From: a virus
DNA length: 39,400 nucleotides
IMG/VR virus record: IMGVR_UViG_3300018020_000011
Span: 1-39,400 of that record
Reading direction: 5' to 3' (one strand)
Of this stretch, positions 2,977 to 17,271 are shown one piece after another. The notes below the pieces were generated by a model. It had not been told where the DNA came from. It saw only the letters and a list, made by a program, of their open reading frames with translations, and made no database searches. The translations under genes were made by a program, and so were the position numbers. How positions within the stretch are numbered: position 1 is the first letter of the stretch; each line of letters opens with the position of its first letter.

Positions 2977-3212
2977 CCTCTGCTCTCCTCTATTATGCCG
3001 CCTCCGCCCATCTGCTCGATGGCGTGTCTTGTGACCTCCTGGCGCGCCACGAACGCCCTGATCTCATCCAGGTTCTCAAGTACCGCCTTTGCTCCGCGTT
3101 CGCCGAGGACCACGGCCGGCCCATGTTCTACCGGCACGTCCAGGACCGTCTTCTTGACGCCTCCAAATTCACAGATTCTCTCAGTCGCCTTCTTCAGTCT
3201 GTGCACAGTCAC
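2973..3212 (-). CDS. Small hypothetical early protein (GTG start)
   Basis: I do not recognise this 79-residue protein. It starts with GTG at 3212, one base after the stop of the tiny gene before it, and ends in an ATGA overlap with the next gene, so it is held in the operon by coupling on both sides. The middle is rich in Val, Glu and Ala and the C-terminus has a Gly run (MGGGGIIEE). There is no membrane segment, Cys pair or obvious DNA-binding motif. A second GTG at 3206 is an alternative start. Confidence 0.6.
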   Translation of the reverse strand: MTVHRLKKATERICEFGGVKKTVLDVPVEHGPAVVLGERGAKAVLENLDEIRAFVARQEVTRHAIEQMGGGGIIEESRG

Positions 3213-3213
3213 C

Positions 3214-3324
3214 TCAGGTTCTTCCCGATGCGCACATGCCGATTATCCAAATGGTCCCGGCGATTCCAATGATCACGCCGATCAAAACTCCGCCCCAGAA
3301 TGGATTGCTCATCAATATTTCCAT
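3214..3324 (-). CDS. 36-residue single-pass membrane peptide
   Basis: A very short gene with a clear ribosome site (AAGGAGA, seven bases before ATG). The peptide begins MEILMSNPFWGG and then has about twenty hydrophobic residues (VLIGVIIGIAGTIWIIG), so it is almost entirely one membrane helix, ending in a short polar tail. It is followed after one base by the GTG of the next gene. Its role is unknown; tiny early membrane proteins in phages may alter host membranes or exclude other phages. Confidence 0.6.
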   Translation of the reverse strand: MEILMSNPFWGGVLIGVIIGIAGTIWIIGMCASGRT

Positions 3325-3341
3325 GATAAAATCTCCTTGTA

Positions 3342-3405
3342 TTCCCCTTTCGCGAAGGGGAAGAAAGAAAGGGTCGGCCCGGGGAGGAGGTTTGAACCCC
3401 GGGCC
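3342..3405 (-). terminator. Tandem hairpins acting as intrinsic terminator/attenuator inside the early operon
   Basis: A 9-bp perfect GC stem (GGCCCGGGG at 3376-3384 pairing with CCCCGGGCC at 3397-3405) lies 12 bases after the 103-residue membrane protein gene. On the minus strand it is followed by CCCTTTCTTTCTT, an interrupted T-run. A second hairpin (TTCCCCTT / AAGGGGAA, 3342-3349 with 3355-3362) comes next. Together they probably cut expression of the genes further downstream unless transcription is antiterminated. The T-run is imperfect, so strong but partial termination is the best reading. Confidence 0.6.
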
Positions 3406-3417
3406 TGCCGTGGGGAG

Positions 3418-3729
3418 TTAACTGTGGATTGTCGCCTCACCCCGATGTTTCAGCAGATCGTTTGCTGCGGTCCTGTTTTGCGTCAGACGTCCGAGACGTG
3501 CGTTCATGTCTCTCACAATCGCCAGGGCCGACCGTTCCTCCGCCCTGGTCAGGATATCGCGCCTGGCGTTCCTCCTGAGCCATGCCATGACTATAATTGT
3601 GAAGAGGATCACCGCCGCGAAATTCGGCCAGGGAAAATACGGGCTGTCACCGCCGGCGAAGAGCAGGCATGTCATGGCGAGCAGGCAGATTAAGAATTCG
3701 ATGATCCTTTTCCAGATGCGCTTTTTCAT
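3418..3729 (-). CDS. Two-pass membrane protein of the early operon
   Basis: The 103-residue protein starts MKKRIWKRIIEFL, preceded by a strong GAGGAGG site six bases upstream; an in-frame ATG 15 bases earlier lacks this spacing. Two hydrophobic stretches (about residues 8-25 and 37-52) are separated by a short GGDSPYFPWPN loop and followed by a basic, helical cytoplasmic tail. It follows the 47-residue membrane protein with only one base between stop and start. It resembles no family I can name; position and build suggest an envelope-acting phage accessory protein. Confidence 0.65.
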   Translation of the reverse strand: MKKRIWKRIIEFLICLLAMTCLLFAGGDSPYFPWPNFAAVILFTIIVMAWLRRNARRDILTRAEERSALAIVRDMNARLGRLTQNRTAANDLLKHRGEATIHS

Positions 3730-3730
3730 T

Positions 3731-3874
3731 TCAAACCTCCTCATTCTTAAAATAATCCTTGAGCGCTCGTTTAACGCCGAGTTTCACTGCCTCCTCTATA
3801 ATCCAAAAGAGAAGCCAGGCAGCGCAGATCATAAAAGCGAGAATTAATAAATACAGCGTGATTCGATCATCCAT
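3731..3874 (-). CDS. 47-residue single-pass membrane protein
   Basis: This short gene has an AGGAAG ribosome site five bases before its ATG and ends TGA one base before the next ATG, so it forms a tight pair with the 103-residue membrane protein. The peptide has a hydrophobic helix (ITLYLLILAFMICAAWLLFW, residues 5-24) and then a charged amphipathic helix (EEAVKLGVKRALKDYF). It could be a partner subunit of its neighbour. Function unknown. Confidence 0.65.
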   Translation of the reverse strand: MDDRITLYLLILAFMICAAWLLFWIIEEAVKLGVKRALKDYFKNEEV

Positions 3875-3882
3875 ACAATCTT

Positions 3883-3912
3883 CCTGGATTCCCGCCTTCG
3901 CGGGAATGACAT
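3883..3912 (+). repeat. REP-like inverted repeat, copy 1
   Basis: An 8-bp perfect stem, ATTCCCGC-CTTC-GCGGGAAT, sits in a CTGG...GACAT context. The same unit, including its flanks, recurs at 6411-6440. Repeats of this type are dispersed in many bacterial genomes and give spurious 'WIPAFAGMT' or 'SREGGNP' peptides when translated. Here it lies just upstream of the 47-residue membrane protein gene. Confidence 0.75.
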
Positions 3913-4075
3913 TTATTGTCCGCTTGGGACGAGGTCGGAATGCGCCACACTCCGCCTCTCGATTTCTTCTCCCCGGTCACAGGCGGGAGTATGCCAGAAT
4001 CTGTGTGACCCTCGGCGTTCGCCACGCCACGGCTGGCTCGGCCCGTGGTTATCTCCCCGCCCCAAATGGACAATG
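3913..4075. other. Gene-poor spacer with inverted repeats
   Basis: No convincing gene is seen. The stretch has short inverted repeats (CCACGG...CCGTGG near 4028-4049; GTCACA...TGTGAC). A minus-strand frame starting at 4091 has a plausible AAGGG site but consists mostly of low-complexity sequence and translated repeat, so I do not call it. Confidence 0.4.
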
Positions 4076-4312
4076 TTAAATGAACCGGCATTTCTGCCCT
4101 TTCTCATTTATAAAATATTTCTGCTTCCCATCGTAGAAGACAACCGATATCTTGCGATCCAAACCGTGCTTCTTCAGGAGGCGCTGGAATTCTTTTTTCT
4201 CCTGGAGTGATCGCCATTCGTATGCCGCGGCCGCCGGTGACGTCAGCACAGGCCAATAAATGAACGCCTGAAATCCCATGATCATGACTAGGCAAGCGAT
4301 CAGATATTTCAT
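4076..4312 (-). CDS. Small exported or membrane-anchored early protein
   Basis: The start at 4312 overlaps the stop of the DksA-like gene (ATGA). The 78-residue product has a hydrophobic N-terminus (MKYLIACLVMIMGFQAFIYW) followed by SPAAAA, a possible signal-peptidase site, and a short basic mature part (YEWRSLQEKKEFQRLLKKHG...). It ends in a small beta-rich segment with KQKYFINEKGQKCRF. It may be periplasmic or stay as a single-pass membrane protein. I do not recognise the family. Confidence 0.6.
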   Translation of the reverse strand: MKYLIACLVMIMGFQAFIYWPVLTSPAAAAYEWRSLQEKKEFQRLLKKHGLDRKISVVFYDGKQKYFINEKGQKCRFI

Positions 4313-4539
4313 CGTCTCTCCTTCCTGCTCTCGCACTCGACGCAACGCACGGCATCCGGTTTGGCCTCAAGTCTCTTTGGCGGGATATCGAGCCCGCAAT
4401 CCACGCAGTAAGCAATTCCATCGATGACCTGCGCCCGCTCCGGAGGCTCGAAGAGATCAATGCCGCGGCGCTTCAGATAATTATCCACCGATTGCTGAAT
4501 TTCCCTGTCATTCTGCTGAGCCCTATCGATGATGTCCAT
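4309..4539 (-). CDS. TraR/DksA-type C4 zinc-finger protein
   Basis: The 76-residue protein carries the TraR/DksA zinc finger: C45-x2-C48 and C66-x2-C69 with the spacing CVDCGLDIPPKRLEAKPDAVRCVEC. The N-terminal half is one charged helix, as in TraR. Short phage and plasmid members of this family enter the secondary channel of RNA polymerase and mimic DksA plus ppGpp, changing host and phage promoter use; that role is known for F-plasmid TraR and is inferred here. It lies 3 bases after the CII-like gene and overlaps the next gene by four bases. Confidence 0.88.
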   Translation of the reverse strand: MDIIDRAQQNDREIQQSVDNYLKRRGIDLFEPPERAQVIDGIAYCVDCGLDIPPKRLEAKPDAVRCVECESRKERR

Positions 4540-4542
4540 GCG

Positions 4543-4881
4543 TCACTTCACGAGTCCCACGATTTTCTTGAAAACCTCGATTGCTTTTTCCGGATCAGAA
4601 TCCTTCAATTCCTTTACGTCGTCCGGCGTAAGCAAGAGACAGCCGCAATCGCGCGCGATTCTTTTCAGCATCCAGTAATCCCTGAGATCCCTGGTAAGCT
4701 TGACCAGCCATTCGATGGGCGCATAGTAAGGGTTTCCGCTTGTCGTGGAGCGGTTCGGGTTGATGACGTTGTAGAAGTGATTCCTTGAGATATCGTTCCT
4801 GCGGAAGATATCAGTGCGCTCTTCATGCCTGGCCGCCCTGTCGATCATCTTGTCGAACATCTCGCCATAGGAATCGGACAT
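4543..4881 (-). CDS. CII-like phage regulatory protein (CP76 family)
   Basis: The 112-residue product has the order typical of phage regulatory protein CII/CP76: an N-terminal helical, HTH-like part (DISRNHFYNVINPNRSTTSGN) followed by PIEWLVKLTRDLRDYWMLKRIARDCGCLLL, the pattern of this family. Such proteins control the lysis-lysogeny choice. The ribosome site GAGGAGGG lies just upstream and runs straight on from the T-tract of an intrinsic terminator, so the gene is expressed only when that terminator is passed. It heads the early operon with the DksA-like gene 3 bases downstream. The family call comes from pattern recognition, not a search. Confidence 0.7.
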   Translation of the reverse strand: MSDSYGEMFDKMIDRAARHEERTDIFRRNDISRNHFYNVINPNRSTTSGNPYYAPIEWLVKLTRDLRDYWMLKRIARDCGCLLLTPDDVKELKDSDPEKAIEVFKKIVGLVK

Positions 4882-4890
4882 TTATGCCCT

Positions 4891-4939
4891 CCTCAAAACA
4901 AAAAAGCAGGTCGAATTTCGTGCTGGAATTTCGACCTGC
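4891..4939 (-). terminator. Intrinsic terminator immediately upstream of the CII-like gene
   Basis: On the minus strand a 10-bp perfect stem (GCAGGTCGAA / TTCGACCTGC, 4930-4939 with 4906-4915) with a 14-base loop is followed directly by TTTTTTGTTTTG. This is the best intrinsic terminator in the window. It stands between the putative early promoter at about 5.6 kb and the CII-like gene, the position of tR1 in phage lambda. Confidence 0.85.
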
Positions 4940-4984
4940 GAATTGGATATCCAGAATGCCGCTGATCTGTGGTGTTGCAAAGGT

Positions 4985-5185
4985 TTGCGGCTGCGGTTTA
5001 TTCTGCAGCCGATTGAAGGAGGTATAAAGTTGATGTGCGTCATGCCGGATCCTTTTCTGGTTGAGAAAGTTTTTATTCCGTGCTATGCAACGCTTTCAAG
5101 CCGGTTCTGCGGGAGCATCCCGCCAAGAATCCCCCGCATGACCGGCAGAGCGGAAAAGGGCCTTTCCGCGTTTTCTTCTCTGCAT
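4985..5185 (+). other. Strongly structured stretch, possible leader or small RNA
   Basis: Three hairpins follow each other: CGGCTGC/GCAGCCG (4988-4994 with 5005-5011), GCGGGA/TCCCGC (5109-5123) inside CCGGT...ACCGG (5101-5145), and GCGGAAA/TTTCCGC (5150-5169) followed by GTTTTCTTCT, which looks like a weak plus-strand terminator. They lie before the 84-residue gene. The density of stems suggests a functional RNA as an alternative to the short coding frame in the same place. Confidence 0.4.
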
Positions 5186-5188
5186 TGA
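5033..5188 (+). CDS. Possible 51-residue protein upstream of the lysogeny genes
   Basis: The only strong argument for coding is the near-perfect ribosome site GAAGGAGGT six to nine bases before TTG/ATG. The peptide (MCVMPDPFLVEKVFIP..., ending FSSLH) has no recognisable domain, and its sequence overlaps the hairpins noted at 4985-5185. If real it would be the first gene of the plus-strand lysogeny block, 12 bases before the 84-residue gene. I rate coding and structured RNA about equally likely. Confidence 0.35.
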   Translation: MCVMPDPFLVEKVFIPCYATLSSRFCGSIPPRIPRMTGRAEKGLSAFSSLH

Positions 5189-5200
5189 AGGAGATTGCTT

Positions 5201-5455
5201 ATGAAACAAGGAGACATATTCATACAAATTATTCATGAGGTTACGGGCAAGCCAAAAGAATTTGCCGCTGAAATGCTTGAGATCTTTAAGTCAATGATCC
5301 CCGGGCCGACTAAATTTGATGAAGAGATATCCGACGAAGAAGCTGAAAGTCTACTAATTGAACTTCGGAAAGAAAAAGAGGGAATTGCCAAGTTTATCAT
5401 CGACGGTTACCTTCGCTTTTTTTTGCGGAAATCGCCTCCTTCAGGCTCTGCTTGA
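5201..5455 (+). CDS. Small acidic protein of the lysogeny block, unknown function
   Basis: The start at 5201 is chosen because AAGGAG lies seven bases upstream; a TTG two codons earlier is too close to it. The 84-residue product (MKQGDIFIQIIHEVTG...) is helical and acidic in the middle (FDEEISDEEAESLLIELRKEKEG) with a basic end. No domain is recognised. Its last 59 bases overlap a minus-strand small gene tail to tail, so transcripts from the lytic direction would be antisense to it. Confidence 0.55.
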   Translation: MKQGDIFIQIIHEVTGKPKEFAAEMLEIFKSMIPGPTKFDEEISDEEAESLLIELRKEKEGIAKFIIDGYLRFFLRKSPPSGSA

Positions 5456-5540
5456 TTGCAATGCCGATAAATTCTTGAAATTCGGCCTGCAGTTTTGGAT
5501 CCGGAATTGTTTGATTAAGGAATTTTTGCCATGCGGTCAT
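5397..5540 (-). CDS. 47-residue protein in the cro-like position
   Basis: This frame reads away from the repressor gene in the lytic direction. It has a good ribosome site (GGGAGG, five bases before ATG) and lies 61 bases from the repressor start with a divergent control region between. The peptide starts MTAWQKFLNQTIPDP and is a single amphipathic helix with a basic end; no helix-turn-helix is visible, so it is not an obvious Cro. It could be an antitermination or anti-repressor peptide, or only the leader of the early transcript. Confidence 0.5.
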   Translation of the reverse strand: MTAWQKFLNQTIPDPKLQAEFQEFIGIAIKQSLKEAISAKKSEGNRR

Positions 5541-5610
5541 AGGTTCCTCCCATTTTTAAATTTATGAATCTGGGACGGAGAAATAAACTAATCTAAACGT
5601 CTTGTCAAGA
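5541..5610. promoter_or_regulatory. Divergent switch region: operator-like palindrome and early promoter
   Basis: The space between the repressor (plus) and the 47-residue gene (minus) carries an 11-base palindrome TCTTG-T-CAAGA at 5600-5610. It contains a perfect minus-strand -35 box TTGACA (5603-5608), with AT-rich -10 candidates (TTTATT, 15-base spacing, or TATTTC, 17-base) and overlaps the TTG start of the repressor. A second weak minus-strand candidate is TTTATT-17-TAAATT nearer the 47-residue gene. An operator overlapping the early promoter and the repressor's own start would give repression of lytic genes and autoregulation. Promoter strength cannot be judged by eye. Confidence 0.5.
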
Positions 5611-6195
5611 AAAAAAACGCATAAATCTGATTATATTTTATTCGCTAAGAATATCAGCAAGATAGTCTCTGATAATGGGGGGAAATATGCTGTCGCGGCA
5701 GCTTTGAATGTAGTTTATGACTCCATCCGCAGATGGTGCAAGGGAGAAAATCTGCCCGATGGTCAACAACTCCTCGCCATCCGTGATAAATTCAATGTCT
5801 CCATCGACTGGCTTTTTACGGGCACAAGACCTTATGCGGTTCCCGCTGATCTAATAAATGACCACCGGGTGCGAGAACATCGCTGCGAATTCTGCACCAC
5901 GATTTCGGAAGAGACAAAAGAAATTTGCACAAAAGTGAAAAATATTATAGAATCCGAACATCCTATCATCGTGCATGGAATAAAGGTTGCGATTGAAGTC
6001 TTAGAGGATGCCATCAAGCAAACCGAGGAAATTAAAAAAATCAGAGAGACGGCAACCAAACTTCGGAGGAACTGGAAACGTACGGAGTTGTCATTGGTGG
6101 AAGGAAATATAGAGCCGATTCCCCAGCGGAGAACGTGTGACCCGTGTCCCCTCTTAACGCATCCCGACACAGAACAGCGAGACAAAAAAATATGA
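5602..6195 (+). CDS. CI-like helix-turn-helix repressor
   Basis: The N-terminal 75 residues form a lambda-repressor-type HTH: NISKIVSDNGGKYAVAAALNVVYDSIRRWCKGENLPDGQQLLAIRDKFNVSIDWLFTG, ending with the SIDWLFTG signature of phage repressors. No Ser-Lys S24 peptidase domain follows; instead there is a helical, charged segment (about 90-165) and a Cys-rich tail, so induction by RecA-stimulated self-cleavage is unlikely. The only possible start is TTG at 5602, with no ribosome site at proper distance (GGGACGGAG lies about 20 bases upstream), so a leaderless message like that of lambda cI is possible. It is divergent from the early operon and precedes a membrane protein and a lipoprotein gene. 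Confidence 0.8.
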   Translation: MSRKKTHKSDYILFAKNISKIVSDNGGKYAVAAALNVVYDSIRRWCKGENLPDGQQLLAIRDKFNVSIDWLFTGTRPYAVPADLINDHRVREHRCEFCTTISEETKEICTKVKNIIESEHPIIVHGIKVAIEVLEDAIKQTEEIKKIRETATKLRRNWKRTELSLVEGNIEPIPQRRTCDPCPLLTHPDTEQRDKKI

Positions 6196-6230
6196 TTCAT
6201 GTTCATTTTTAGTCAATAGGAAAGGACATT

Positions 6231-6410
6231 ATGGATGCCGTCGCTTTAACATTCTTTTTTGCGATTCTTTTCTTCGCCATCGCAATAGCCATCCTGCGAT
6301 GGGTCCTGCGCATCAATCATATCGTCGATAGACTGGATCGCATTGTAAACCAACTTGAGAGCATCATCAATGCGTTGAAGGCCGGTTTTAAGATTGAAGA
6401 GACCAAATAA
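6231..6410 (+). CDS. 59-residue membrane protein of the lysogeny block
   Basis: A clear small gene between the repressor and the lipoprotein, with an AAAGGAC site just before ATG. The peptide has a hydrophobic helix (LTFFFAILFFAIAIAILRWV, residues 6-25) followed by a heptad-like amphipathic helix (INHIVDRLDRIVNQLESIINALK), so it is probably anchored with a cytoplasmic or periplasmic coiled coil. Being next to the repressor and a lipoprotein, it may be expressed in the lysogen. A REP-like repeat begins right after its stop. Confidence 0.7.
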   Translation: MDAVALTFFFAILFFAIAIAILRWVLRINHIVDRLDRIVNQLESIINALKAGFKIEETK

Positions 6411-6440
6411 CTGGATTCCCGCTTCCGCGAGAATGACATT
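6411..6440 (+). repeat. REP-like inverted repeat, copy 2
   Basis: Same unit and orientation as at 3883-3912 (CTGGATTCCCGC...GAATGACATT), with one mismatch in the stem (GCGAGAAT in place of GCGGGAAT). It begins directly after the TAA of the 59-residue gene and ends about 33 bases before the lipoprotein gene. Confidence 0.75.
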
Positions 6441-6473
6441 AGGACCAACGCATCCCGCCAAAGGAAAAAAATC

Positions 6474-6935
6474 ATGAAAAGGATTCTGATCATCGCAATC
6501 GTGGGAGTCATGCTGGCGGGGTGCATGCCCAAAATGACAGCGCCTAATTCTGAAGAATTGCAGATTGAAAGAATATTTCAAGTACGCAATCTTGATAAAG
6601 ATGAAATATTTGAACGGTCAAAGATGTGGATGGCAAAGAACTTTAAATCAGCAAAATCCGTCATCGAATATGAAAATAAAGAAAAAGGCGTAATCATAGG
6701 AAATGGCACTACAGATATATATATAAAAATAACCCTCCCTCGTATAGTCGCTACATTCACGATGCAAGAAGATATCAAAGATGGAAAGGTTCGCCTGAAG
6801 ATCGATAACGTTCAGCAGGCGGGGGGATATCCGATTTATTCAGAATTTAAAAAGCCCGTTCAGAACGAGATAGAGCTTTTAACATACGGTCTTCAGATAT
6901 ATCTCACGAACCCCACCAACCGGGAAGACTGGTAA
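6474..6935 (+). CDS. Lipoprotein with DUF4468-type domain
   Basis: The first 17 residues are a lipoprotein signal peptide with lipobox LAGC, so Cys17 should be lipidated and the protein anchored in the envelope. The mature part (DKDEIFERSKMWMAKNFKSAKSVIEYENKEKGVIIGNG...ATFTMQEDIKDGKVR) matches the DUF4468 pattern, a TBP-like fold found in bacterial lipoproteins of unknown role. It is on the plus strand behind the repressor and meets the tail fibre chaperone gene tail to tail with four bases between stops. Position suggests a lysogenic-conversion gene, perhaps for superinfection exclusion; this is inference. Confidence 0.8.
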   Translation: MKRILIIAIVGVMLAGCMPKMTAPNSEELQIERIFQVRNLDKDEIFERSKMWMAKNFKSAKSVIEYENKEKGVIIGNGTTDIYIKITLPRIVATFTMQEDIKDGKVRLKIDNVQQAGGYPIYSEFKKPVQNEIELLTYGLQIYLTNPTNREDW

Positions 6936-6939
6936 ATCT

Positions 6940-7416
6940 CTAAGCCTTCTTCGCGTTCATCACCGCCGCAACTGTCGGCATTGCGGAAATGGATGTCGGC
7001 AAATCCGCCTCGACGAGAACGCCCTTGGTCATCAGCGCCGCCACGAGGTCACATAGAGGGTCGGGCAACGGCGGAGGCGGCTGAGACGTCCATTGCGTCC
7101 CGTCCCACACGGGAAATTCGCAAGGCGCCAGTAATGTAAAGCCCTCAGGGATTGCTCCTACCTCTGCAATTATCATTTCACTGGCATCCGACGTCTTATA
7201 TATCCTGGTTCCTCTGTGATCTTCGATCTGCGTCCACGCTCCGTTCTTGAAGATCCGCGCATTGCCTTCCGCTGCATCAGGCGGCGCCACTACGGTCGAA
7301 TGCGCGGGCATTAGATAAACTTCTTTGCCCTGATTCAGCGACTCAAGCGGATCAAGGGGAGCATCCTGCGATCCGATGTATTCCCCCGTTTGCCAATGGC
7401 AATTATAAATTTTCAT
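6940..7416 (-). CDS. Tail fibre assembly (chaperone)-like protein
   Basis: The protein starts MKIYNCHWQTGEYIGSQDAPLDPLES and continues with LMPAHSTVVAPPDA, FKNGAWTQIEDHRGTRIY and EVGAIPEGFTLLAP: the order and wording of small proteins coded next to phage tail fibres and taken as fibre assembly factors. I start at ATG 7416, five bases after GAGGAG; a GTG six bases upstream overlaps that site. It is the last gene of the late unit, ends with TAG, and directly follows the collar-type fibre gene. Its C-terminus holds a small helical module (DLVAALMTKGVLVEADLPTS). Confidence 0.7.
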   Translation of the reverse strand: MKIYNCHWQTGEYIGSQDAPLDPLESLNQGKEVYLMPAHSTVVAPPDAAEGNARIFKNGAWTQIEDHRGTRIYKTSDASEMIIAEVGAIPEGFTLLAPCEFPVWDGTQWTSQPPPPLPDPLCDLVAALMTKGVLVEADLPTSISAMPTVAAVMNAKKA

Positions 7417-7426
7417 AAACACTCCT

Positions 7427-15359: not shown

Positions 15360-15839
15360 TTAACTCCCTTTCAAGACTTCTTTTTCGATGCGCTGCGCTA
15401 GATATTCTTTCATCGCTTCGATCGCTTCCATCTTCTTCGCTTCGTATGCCGGACGCAGAAAAGGCTTCGCCGCCATCTTCGACGTACCGAATTCGATGAA
15501 ACGCCACCAGAAGGGAAATAACTTCGTGAAGCGATCTTTGTATCCAGCGATGCCCACAAAAAAAGTCACTGCATATTGAGTTCTTCGTTTCTGCCAGGAG
15601 GCTATCTTCTTTCTCATGAAGCCGGGAGGCACTATAACCTTCTGGCCGCTGAATTTCTTGATGAGCGCCTTTTCGGCGACGAGGGCGCGCAGCCTGGCTT
15701 CTGTGCGGAAAACATTGGCGCCGGCGCGGACGCCGCCCACCAGGATCTTCTTCTCAAGTTTCACCGGAAAATCATTGAGGGTCTTCTCCAGATCGGCAAG
15801 ACCCGTTATTTTAACCGATTCCGTGCTTATATCGTTCAT
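15360..15839 (-). CDS. HK97 gp10-like tail completion/neck protein
   Basis: The 159-residue protein has the HK97-gp10 pattern: ITGLADLEKTLNDFPVKLEKKILVGGVRAGANVFRTEAR at the start and FWWRFIEFGTSKMAAKPFLRPAYEAKK at the end. Such proteins complete the head-proximal end of the tail. Its place is unusual: it lies between the tail chaperone T frame (ATGA overlap) and the tape measure gene, not with the other completion genes near 17.3-18.0 kb. Confidence 0.82.
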   Translation of the reverse strand: MNDISTESVKITGLADLEKTLNDFPVKLEKKILVGGVRAGANVFRTEARLRALVAEKALIKKFSGQKVIVPPGFMRKKIASWQKRRTQYAVTFFVGIAGYKDRFTKLFPFWWRFIEFGTSKMAAKPFLRPAYEAKKMEAIEAMKEYLAQRIEKEVLKGS

Positions 15840-16500
15840 GCCCCGAATACCCTTGTTGCGTACGCCTCGAGTTCTTCTACCGTCAATTGTCTCTCCTTCA
15901 CTTCCGGAGCGTCACAAAAGTTCATGAAATCGGCGGCCGTGAAGGGCTCGGGACGCGCCTTCGAATCCCTGTTTATATTTGCGGTCAGGGCCATTTGCTG
16001 CCCGTGCCTCAGCTCCGCCCTGTATTCCCCGAATGGATCTATATTGCTGTAATTAAGCCAGCCGTTGAGTTGGCGCGCCGTCAGGCACTGGAGGAGATGA
16101 TCGGGATGAGGAAATCCCAGGTGAAGCGCCAGCCGGTAGAGGAACAATTCCCGCGGCCGGCTCCTTAATTTTTTGATTCGTCTCCCGCAAGGCCGTTCAT
16201 GCGCCGCGCCGCCCGAGCAAGCGCGCTGAATCGCGCAGACGCCGCCTTCTCCAGAAGCGCCGCGTCCTCATCCGAAAAGATGCGGTTCCCGGCATCGTCG
16301 ACCACACTCTTGGCGACAAGGGCGGGAATAAACTTCGACATGACGATATCGCCGCTCTCGTTTTGGAGTTCCTTCCGGGTATAGAGATCCATCAGGTCCT
16401 TTGCCCCGATTTCGGAGAGAATCACTTCTCCGCCTTCCACGGCGATCGTTTCCTGCTTCAGCTTCATCAATTCGAGAAGCGCATTTCTGTCAAGGCTCAT
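15836..16500 (-). CDS. Tail assembly chaperone frameshift product (gpGT-like)
   Basis: Two overlapping frames form a lambda G/GT pair. The first, 16500-16165, gives a 111-residue gpG-like protein. The second, in the -1 frame and open through the slippery site down to 15836, encodes LALHLGFPHPDHLLQCLTARQLNGWLNYSNIDPFGEYRAELRHGQ, typical of tail assembly protein T. A slip would make one 221-residue protein. In lambda, G and GT bind the tape measure protein and help the tube polymerise; both must be made in a set ratio. The T frame has no ribosome site of its own, which supports the fusion. Confidence 0.75.
16165..16500 (-). CDS. Tail assembly chaperone (gpG-like)
   Basis: This is the unshifted product: 111 residues, MSLDRNALLELMKLKQETIAVEGGEVILSEIGAKDLMDLY..., ending AGDESKN. 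The size, place just after the tail tube gene and acidic helical end fit the gpG class. AAGGTG lies before the ATG, in the 19 bases between the tRNA 3' end and the start codon. The slippery site lies in its last three codons. Confidence 0.75.
   Translation of the reverse strand: MSLDRNALLELMKLKQETIAVEGGEVILSEIGAKDLMDLYTRKELQNESGDIVMSKFIPALVAKSVVDDAGNRIFSDEDAALLEKAASARFSALARAARRMNGLAGDESKN
16168..16174 (-). promoter_or_regulatory. -1 programmed ribosomal frameshift site (A AAA AAT)
   Basis: Read on the minus strand in the gpG frame, ...TCA AAA AAT TAA: the heptamer A-AAA-AAT has the X-XXY-YYZ form and lies directly before the stop. A -1 slip continues TTA AGG AGC into the T frame. A GC-rich stretch follows (GGAGCCGGCCGCGGG), which could pair and slow the ribosome. 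Confidence 0.75.
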
Positions 16501-16519
16501 AAATCACCTTTTCAATCTT

Positions 16520-16595
16520 TGGTAGCGAGGGAGGGAGTCGAACCCTCTATTTTCAGCTTATGAGGCTGATGAGATAACCGTTTCTCCACCTCGCG
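16520..16595 (-). tRNA. tRNA with CAU anticodon (Met or Ile2 type), inside the tail operon
   Basis: The 76 bases fold into a full cloverleaf: acceptor stem GCGAGG/CCTCGC with a C1-U72 mismatch at the end, D stem GAGA/TCTC with an AACGGTTA loop, anticodon stem TCAGC/GCTGA around CTCATAA, five-base variable loop, T stem GAGGG/CCCTC with loop TTCGACT, discriminator A and encoded CCA. The anticodon is CAU. It lacks the three G-C pairs of initiator tRNA, so it is an elongator Met tRNA or, if C34 becomes lysidine, tRNA-Ile2 reading AUA. It lies between the tail tube gene (11 bases) and the chaperone gene (20 bases) on the same strand, so it must be cut out of the late message. Confidence 0.93.
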
Positions 16596-16605
16596 AAATC
16601 CAATT

Positions 16606-17271
16606 TTATGACCTGGTCACGGCGCCGCTGATCTGTATTTCAAAACTTCCGGTCTGCACACCGTCAACTGCCGCATCCGGCAGCGTCCCGAATTTCAGGA
16701 TGGAGCCGCTAAAGGTCCTGATGCTTCCGCCCGTCAAGACCACCTTGAAGGCGCACACGACGGAGCCGACAAAAGCGGCAAGAGCCGCCTGCTGACCGGG
16801 ATCGCTGACTTTCTCGAAATATTCCATTGCGACGGTGCCATTGTCGATAAGGCCCGACTCGAATTCCTTTGCCAGACTATCCAGATCCGTAACATCGATC
16901 TTGCTTGCCTGCGCCCCGGCCGGTTTAATGGATTTGATCTCCTTGATCTGTGTCCAGTCCGCCGGCGTCGCGTGTGCCGTGCCGATGGTGATCGTCTTTC
17001 CGGCCGTATTTATATCGACCGCGAAAGTGTCGTTGACGGCGCCTGTTGCGACGTGATGGGCGACTGCCGTCTGGCCGTTGATCAGGGCATCATCTCCCCC
17101 GGCGAAATTACTGTCGAAGGTTACGACGTCGCCGTTGGCAATGCCTGCATGGCCGGTCATGGCCAGGATAGTCGGATAACCGCACACGATTGCCGTCAGG
17201 GCCTCCGATGCGCCGGCCGCCCCGGCAATATAAATTTTACATCCCTGTGCTAATTGAGCTGCGATAGACAT
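16606..17271 (-). CDS. Major tail tube protein
   Basis: The 221-residue protein shows the siphophage tail tube pattern in its second half: ASKIDVTDLDSLAKEFESGLIDNGTVAMEYFE, then DPGQQAALAAFVGSVVCAFKVVL and GSILKFGTLPDAAVDGVQTGSFEIQISG, which match lambda gpV-like proteins. The N-terminal part (residues 1-105) holds an extra Gly/Ala/Asp-rich beta segment. A good AGGAGGACA site precedes the ATG. It follows the tail terminator-like gene and is followed by the tRNA. Confidence 0.88.
   Translation of the reverse strand: MSIAAQLAQGCKIYIAGAAGASEALTAIVCGYPTILAMTGHAGIANGDVVTFDSNFAGGDDALINGQTAVAHHVATGAVNDTFAVDINTAGKTITIGTAHATPADWTQIKEIKSIKPAGAQASKIDVTDLDSLAKEFESGLIDNGTVAMEYFEKVSDPGQQAALAAFVGSVVCAFKVVLTGGSIRTFSGSILKFGTLPDAAVDGVQTGSFEIQISGAVTRS

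Follow-up and report, generated by a model that had tools for sequence, protein, structure and literature searches.

An initiator-type tRNA gene lies between the tail tube and tail chaperone genes of a virus, in a slot that holds a hairpin in relatives

The window analyzed here is a 39,400-nt stretch of viral DNA from IMG/VR record IMGVR_UViG_3300018020_000011. ARAGORN identified a single tRNA in this 39.4-kb window, a tRNA-Met(CAT) gene on the minus strand, the strand that also carries the late genes. The gene lies between two tail genes, and the features of the locus are as follows, in the direction of transcription (L003 is a relative of the window).

16606..17271, minus strand: major tail (tube) protein, 221 aa, upstream of the tRNA (phrog_158, E 4e-20; phrog_584)
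16596..16605, minus strand: 10-nt spacer from the tube stop codon to the tRNA 5′ end (the L003 spacer is equally long, with another sequence)
16520..16595, minus strand: complete tRNA(CAU) gene of initiator type, 76 nt with encoded CCA (ARAGORN; Rfam RF00005, 59.7 bits)
16572..16585, minus strand: A11 (16585) and U24 (16572), the initiator D-stem pair (tRNA comparison)
16555..16567, minus strand: anticodon stem A29:U41, G30:C40, C31:G39 with loop CUCAUAA, without a GGG:CCC block (alignment)
16524, minus strand: U72, unpaired with C1 (16595), the initiator-type end mismatch (Rfam alignment; viral tRNA comparison)
16501..16519, minus strand: 19-nt spacer from the tRNA to the chaperone ATG, with the ribosome-binding site AAGGTGA at 16510-16504 (sequence)
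16165..16500, minus strand: tail assembly chaperone, 111 aa, G-like, downstream of the tRNA (phrog_344, E 1.5e-13)
15836..16174, minus strand: GT-like extension, probably made by a −1 frameshift, with 109 codons open in that frame (slippery site; phrog_337 tail protein)

The tRNA has the sequence CGCGAGGUGGAGAAACGGUUAUCUCAUCAGCCUCAUAAGCUGAAAAUAGAGGGUUCGACUCCCUCCCUCGCUACCA, in which the CCA (16522-16520) is part of the gene, and its cloverleaf is complete. The match to RF00005 extended over the entire model (1-71 of 71), exceeded the gathering score of 29 and had an E value of 1.3e-10 over the whole window; it was the sole RNA family match in the 39.4 kb. Thus, ARAGORN and the covariance model agree on the complete tRNA(CAU) gene with intact cloverleaf and encoded CCA that a sequence-only reading had proposed, and the phrog_158 and phrog_344 matches agree with its naming of the flanking genes as tail tube and tail chaperone. 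That reading gave no strand, and its gaps of 11 and 20 bases were each one too long, the measured lengths being 10 and 19 nt. Taken alone, the gap had an unremarkable folding energy (z −1.19), so the tRNA call depends on the covariance model. A terminator scan of the minus strand found no terminator-like site, defined as a G+C-rich stem followed by a T run, at 16501-16605.

The downstream chaperone gene probably carries a programmed −1 frameshift of the G/GT type. The slippery sequence A_AAA_AAT at 16174-16168 lies directly before the chaperone stop codon, and in L003 (3773-4434) its counterpart A_AAA_AAA is found beside the stop codon of the chaperone gene. The ratio of the chaperone's own two products would therefore be set by a device other than the tRNA.

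The known formylation determinants of Met-tRNA are an unpaired 1:72 position, G2:C71, C3:G70 and A11:U24 (PMC7949028). Each determinant tested is present in the window tRNA together with the CAU anticodon, and so the tRNA should be formylated by the host. In a set of viral-contig tRNAs, some members of which may be cellular genes at prophage edges, 58 of 59 distinct initiator-type CAT tRNAs with an encoded CCA among the matches listed had positions 1 and 72 unpaired, versus 5 of 206 tRNAs with other anticodons. The search pattern for viral initiator-type tRNAs specified C1 to C3, the D stem and the loop of the anticodon but left position 72 free; the 1:72 result is therefore independent of the search, which did impose C1 and A11:U24. 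When 1051 distinct viral tRNAs were ranked by similarity to the window tRNA, the nearest 20 were all of the initiator type and the first of another type ranked 21st. A CAU anticodon would also suit an elongator tRNA-Met or a lysidine-modified tRNA-Ile2 that decodes AUG or AUA codons, and AUA makes up 18.9% of the Ile codons in 30 window genes. However, a paired 1:72 position and Y11:R24, which characterize these tRNAs, are both absent: the window tRNA has an unpaired C1:U72 and A11:U24, while the sampled elongator CAT tRNAs, which were defined by Y11:R24, mostly have G1:C72. The acceptor pairs of tRNA-Ile2 are C4:G69 and C5:G68, from which G4:C69 and A5:U68 of the window tRNA differ. We regard an elongator or Ile2 role as highly improbable.

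The C1:U72 mismatch had been considered odd. Although the mismatch is real, it occurs in 27 of 30 cellular initiator genes from Desulfobacterota, the phylum of a possible host (see below), and is thus the usual mismatch there. All 30 of these genes also have three consecutive G:C pairs in the anticodon stem (3GC; 29:41, 30:40 and 31:39), where the window tRNA has AGC:GCU, and the window tRNA is at most 75% identical to the sampled cellular initiators. On sequence comparison, it is the loss of 3GC that sets the phage tRNA apart from the initiators of this phylum. The previous description of an initiator-like end joined to a non-initiator anticodon stem was accurate as to the missing GGG:CCC block but overlooked A11:U24, G2:C71 and C3:G70. 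The GGG:CCC block is held to be important for initiation. As this block is conserved in initiators and missing here, the window tRNA may initiate poorly, and we class it as initiator-type rather than as a canonical tRNA-fMet. Among the matches listed, all three pairs were G:C in only 21 of 101 distinct viral initiator-type tRNAs; G30:C40 was kept in 95 of the 101, a pair that is also frequent in elongator CAT tRNAs (12 of 18).

The frequency of 3GC, 30 of 30 in the Desulfobacterota cellular initiators versus 21 of 101 in the viral ones among the matches listed, would fit an initiator that substitutes for the host's own and, through its changed anticodon stem, escapes a host anticodon nuclease, such that translation continues when a VapC-type enzyme cuts tRNA-fMet. 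Moreover, phage tRNAs have anticodon-loop changes that are predicted to evade VapC (PMC10264068). However, the anticodon loop of the window tRNA, CUCAUAA, is unchanged, and simple relaxation could equally explain the loss of 3GC. Escape from a nuclease is therefore an unlikely primary function.

Two relatives, L003 and L004, carry a tRNA at the same place, identical between the two contigs. Their tube protein is 84% identical to that of the window, and the L003 chaperone is 72% identical. The window and L003 tRNAs differ at 16 of 76 positions (21% divergence), yet five pairs are changed on both sides (5:68, 27:43, 28:42, 31:39 and 51:63), none is changed on one side only and none is broken. 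Only 1 in 20000 random sets of 16 substitutions preserved all pairs. The L003 tRNA also preserves the unpaired C1 (C1:C72 instead of C1:U72), A11:U24, CAU and CCA. These findings indicate selection for function as a tRNA. At its third codon positions the tube gene is 45% identical, so that the flanks have diverged considerably while selection has kept the tRNA. Spacer lengths are likewise preserved at 10 and 19/20 nt although most of the spacer sequence differs; AAAGGTGATTTATG in the spacer before the chaperone gene (16501-16519) is common to both. As a separate observation, the T loop of the L003 tRNA is UGCGACU, in which U55, normally pseudouridine, is G (3731), and the same GGTGCGA variant is found in the viral initiator-type tRNAs of L025, L048, L054, L076, L112 and L133.

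Since tRNA genes serve temperate phages as attachment sites, the gene might instead be what remains of a host tRNA gene used in this way. We consider this the least probable of the explanations: the tRNA is complete, lies within a tail operon, has no more than 75% identity to cellular initiators and is maintained by compensatory change, and no integrase family match was found among the 30 window proteins scanned, a subset of the ORFs.

We then compared the gap between the tube and chaperone genes across relatives collected with the tube protein as the query. A tRNA was present in this gap only in the window group and the L003 group, giving two independent lineages (the window and L002; L003 and L004). 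In contrast, among the relatives that lack the tRNA and have a complete gap of 30 nt or more, all 16 measured have a hairpin at this position. Each ranks in the lowest 0-5% when compared with the folding energies of 45-nt windows across its locus, and z-scores ranged from −1.7 to −5.7 for the 15 of 16 that were refolded singly. L346 is a further relative with a gap hairpin. The 30-nt gap of L336 has no strong hairpin, and four relatives (L157, L159, L009 and L160) have gaps of less than 20 nt with no room for an element and none present, indicating that a gap element is not required; the gap of L139 is cut by the contig end. Hairpin sequences vary between groups, that of L006 being GCGCCCUUCGGGGCGC, while L144 and L156 have a long stem whose sequence changes. 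In L144 (3661-3730), L148 (3148-3215) and L156 (3640-3705) the long, changing stem retains a 4x4 internal loop (UUAG/AAAC), and the hairpin resembles a conserved RNA element in its own right.

The tube tree groups the tRNA carriers in one clade (100/100) that is nested among hairpin carriers, and the sister clade (L006, L138 and L007) has hairpins in the gap. A hairpin therefore most likely preceded the tRNA, and we conclude from the tree that the tRNA most likely replaced it. With the chaperone protein as the query we found no relative beyond the near-identical contig L014, and phage records contained two tube homologues, both distant. A slot common to tRNA and hairpins could mean that this is purely an RNA-processing or structural element in which only the fold matters and the tRNA is never charged. 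However, a mere fold would need none of CAU, the CUCAUAA loop, A11:U24, the C1 mismatch or CCA, all of which are kept at 21% divergence; this explanation is very unlikely.

The sequence-only reading had also emphasized the solitary placement of the tRNA in a structural operon. It is indeed single, tightly spaced and between tail genes, but solitary tRNAs tightly embedded in operons are equally frequent in a matched set of elongator CAT tRNAs. In viral contigs, 31 of 65 initiator-type tRNAs were solitary versus 31 of 89 CAT elongators (p = 0.13), and tightly embedded cases were more numerous among the CAT elongators; we therefore dropped the idea of a special tendency of initiator-type tRNAs to be solitary or embedded. 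Several initiator-type tRNAs do lie beside structural genes (L032, L050, L061, L069, L096, L131 and L137), while the few elongator CAT tRNA neighbors tested gave no informative family match. The solitary initiator-type tRNA of L096 (1074-1149) follows a head-morphogenesis gene at a distance of 12 nt and precedes, by 21 nt, a gene of phrog_7339, a DNA repair exonuclease family; it is a second example of tight embedding, in an operon unrelated to that of the window. L084, L097 and L069 share an identical initiator-type tRNA (C1:U72, TGG:CCA), located roughly 480 nt from the gene for a terminase small subunit.

These placements bear on the possibility that an ordinary phage tRNA came to lie in a gap of the tail operon that tolerates it, such that it acts only as an extra initiator-type tRNA and its location is without regulatory significance. 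Viral contigs commonly contain initiator-type tRNAs (at least 101 distinct, found across L019-L137), many of which lie in tRNA clusters, solitary and tightly embedded CAT elongators are just as frequent, and L096 provides another solitary example with similarly short gaps. On the other hand, the slot is the very one that holds a hairpin in relatives, and the tRNA clade is nested among hairpin carriers. We therefore hold chance placement to be a serious but lesser possibility.

The reading that we favor, and consider somewhat probable, is that the late transcript yields a working initiator-type tRNA and that its excision also separates the tube and chaperone messages. It builds on the gene itself, its identity marks, the selection on its structure, its position, the hairpin of the relatives and the nesting in the tree. 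The shared strand and the 10- and 19-nt spacers make co-transcription likely, so that the tRNA would be transcribed within the late tail operon. Host RNase P would then cut the late message at the 5′ end of the tRNA, and a further endonuclease, for instance RNase E, III or Z, would cut behind the CCA. The mature tRNA would be charged with Met, formylated by the host and added to the initiator pool late in infection, despite the missing 3GC block. Excision would at the same time split the tube message from the chaperone message, which would retain its own ribosome-binding site AAGGTGA after tRNA 3′ processing but start at a processed, decay-prone 5′ end. In this message-splitting role the tRNA would stand in for the gap hairpin of the relatives. 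The earlier suggestion that the tRNA separates the amounts of tube and chaperone gains indirect support from that hairpin and from the nested position of the tRNA clade, with the cleavage itself being a step that we infer.

A precedent exists in the E. coli metY-nusA-infB operon, in which a minor initiator tRNA is excised from mRNA by RNase III (PMC6511841); a 1989 paper cited there states in its title that metY excision releases the tRNA and initiates downstream mRNA decay. Given this precedent, a fall in chaperone relative to tube is plausible. The E. coli initiator tRNA is made on a protein-coding transcript and cut out of it, as the window tRNA would be, judging from its gene arrangement. 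However, metY is the first gene of its operon and is excised by RNase III, whereas the window tRNA is internal and no RNase III stem was seen at it. The relatives' element also differs in kind, as it is a stem-loop, partly terminator-like, in gaps of 34-119 nt, although it occupies the same slot between the same two genes (L006, L138, L007, L144 and others). The hairpins would protect the tube message and tRNA excision would not, and hence the two elements may not be equivalent. Cleavage by RNase P would leave a bare 3′ tail of 10 nt on the tube message, and this could destabilize the more abundant message. In addition, a ribosome at the tube stop codon would cover the tRNA 5′ end and may hinder its folding or processing.

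Compared with bacterial tRNA-fMet (E. coli metZWV/metY), the window tRNA shares CAU, the CUCAUAA loop, the C1x72 mismatch, G2:C71, C3:G70, A11:U24 and the encoded CCA, but has AGC:GCU in place of GGG:CCC. The tRNA-Met of Sinorhizobium phage NV1.1.1 (OP484858.1) is 80% identical to the window tRNA and shares its D-arm type, A29:U41/G30:C40/C31:G39 and the C1 mismatch. However, it lies not between tail genes but ahead of a gene for an HNH endonuclease, and its annotated gaps measure 139 and about 445 nt. A more ambitious version of our favored reading, which we put forward only tentatively, is that a natural initiator lacking 3GC took the place of the hairpin as an insulator that cuts the late message, and that its product also alters late initiation through a less strict P-site check or by evading a host nuclease. 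If true, a single element would link the supply for translation with the stoichiometry of the operon.

Phage tRNAs, including initiator-type ones, are already known, and why phages carry tRNAs is a long-standing question. A published analysis of enteric phages noted that phage genomes generally do not encode tRNA-fMet where it is the nuclease target (PMC10264068), whereas initiator-type tRNAs are readily found across viral contigs. We found no report of a tRNA between tube and chaperone genes in literature titles or abstracts, which is weak evidence of absence, nor of an initiator-type tRNA replacing a hairpin there in the literature searched, mostly titles and abstracts. A tRNA in the slot of the relatives' hairpin allows processing and translation roles to be compared directly, and viral initiator-type tRNAs without GGG:CCC are natural variants for testing the need for 3GC in initiation.

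A Desulfocapsa bin contains a tube homologue with 60% identity, the only full-length one among 395 genomes of the phylum, which gave one further weak, partial match. BLAST of the tRNA against this bin returned a 16-nt match only. This homologue and the C1:U72 habit hint at Desulfobacterota as a possible host phylum. Elsewhere in the window, about 4.4 kb (2977-7426) contains only short ORFs and has no assigned gene.
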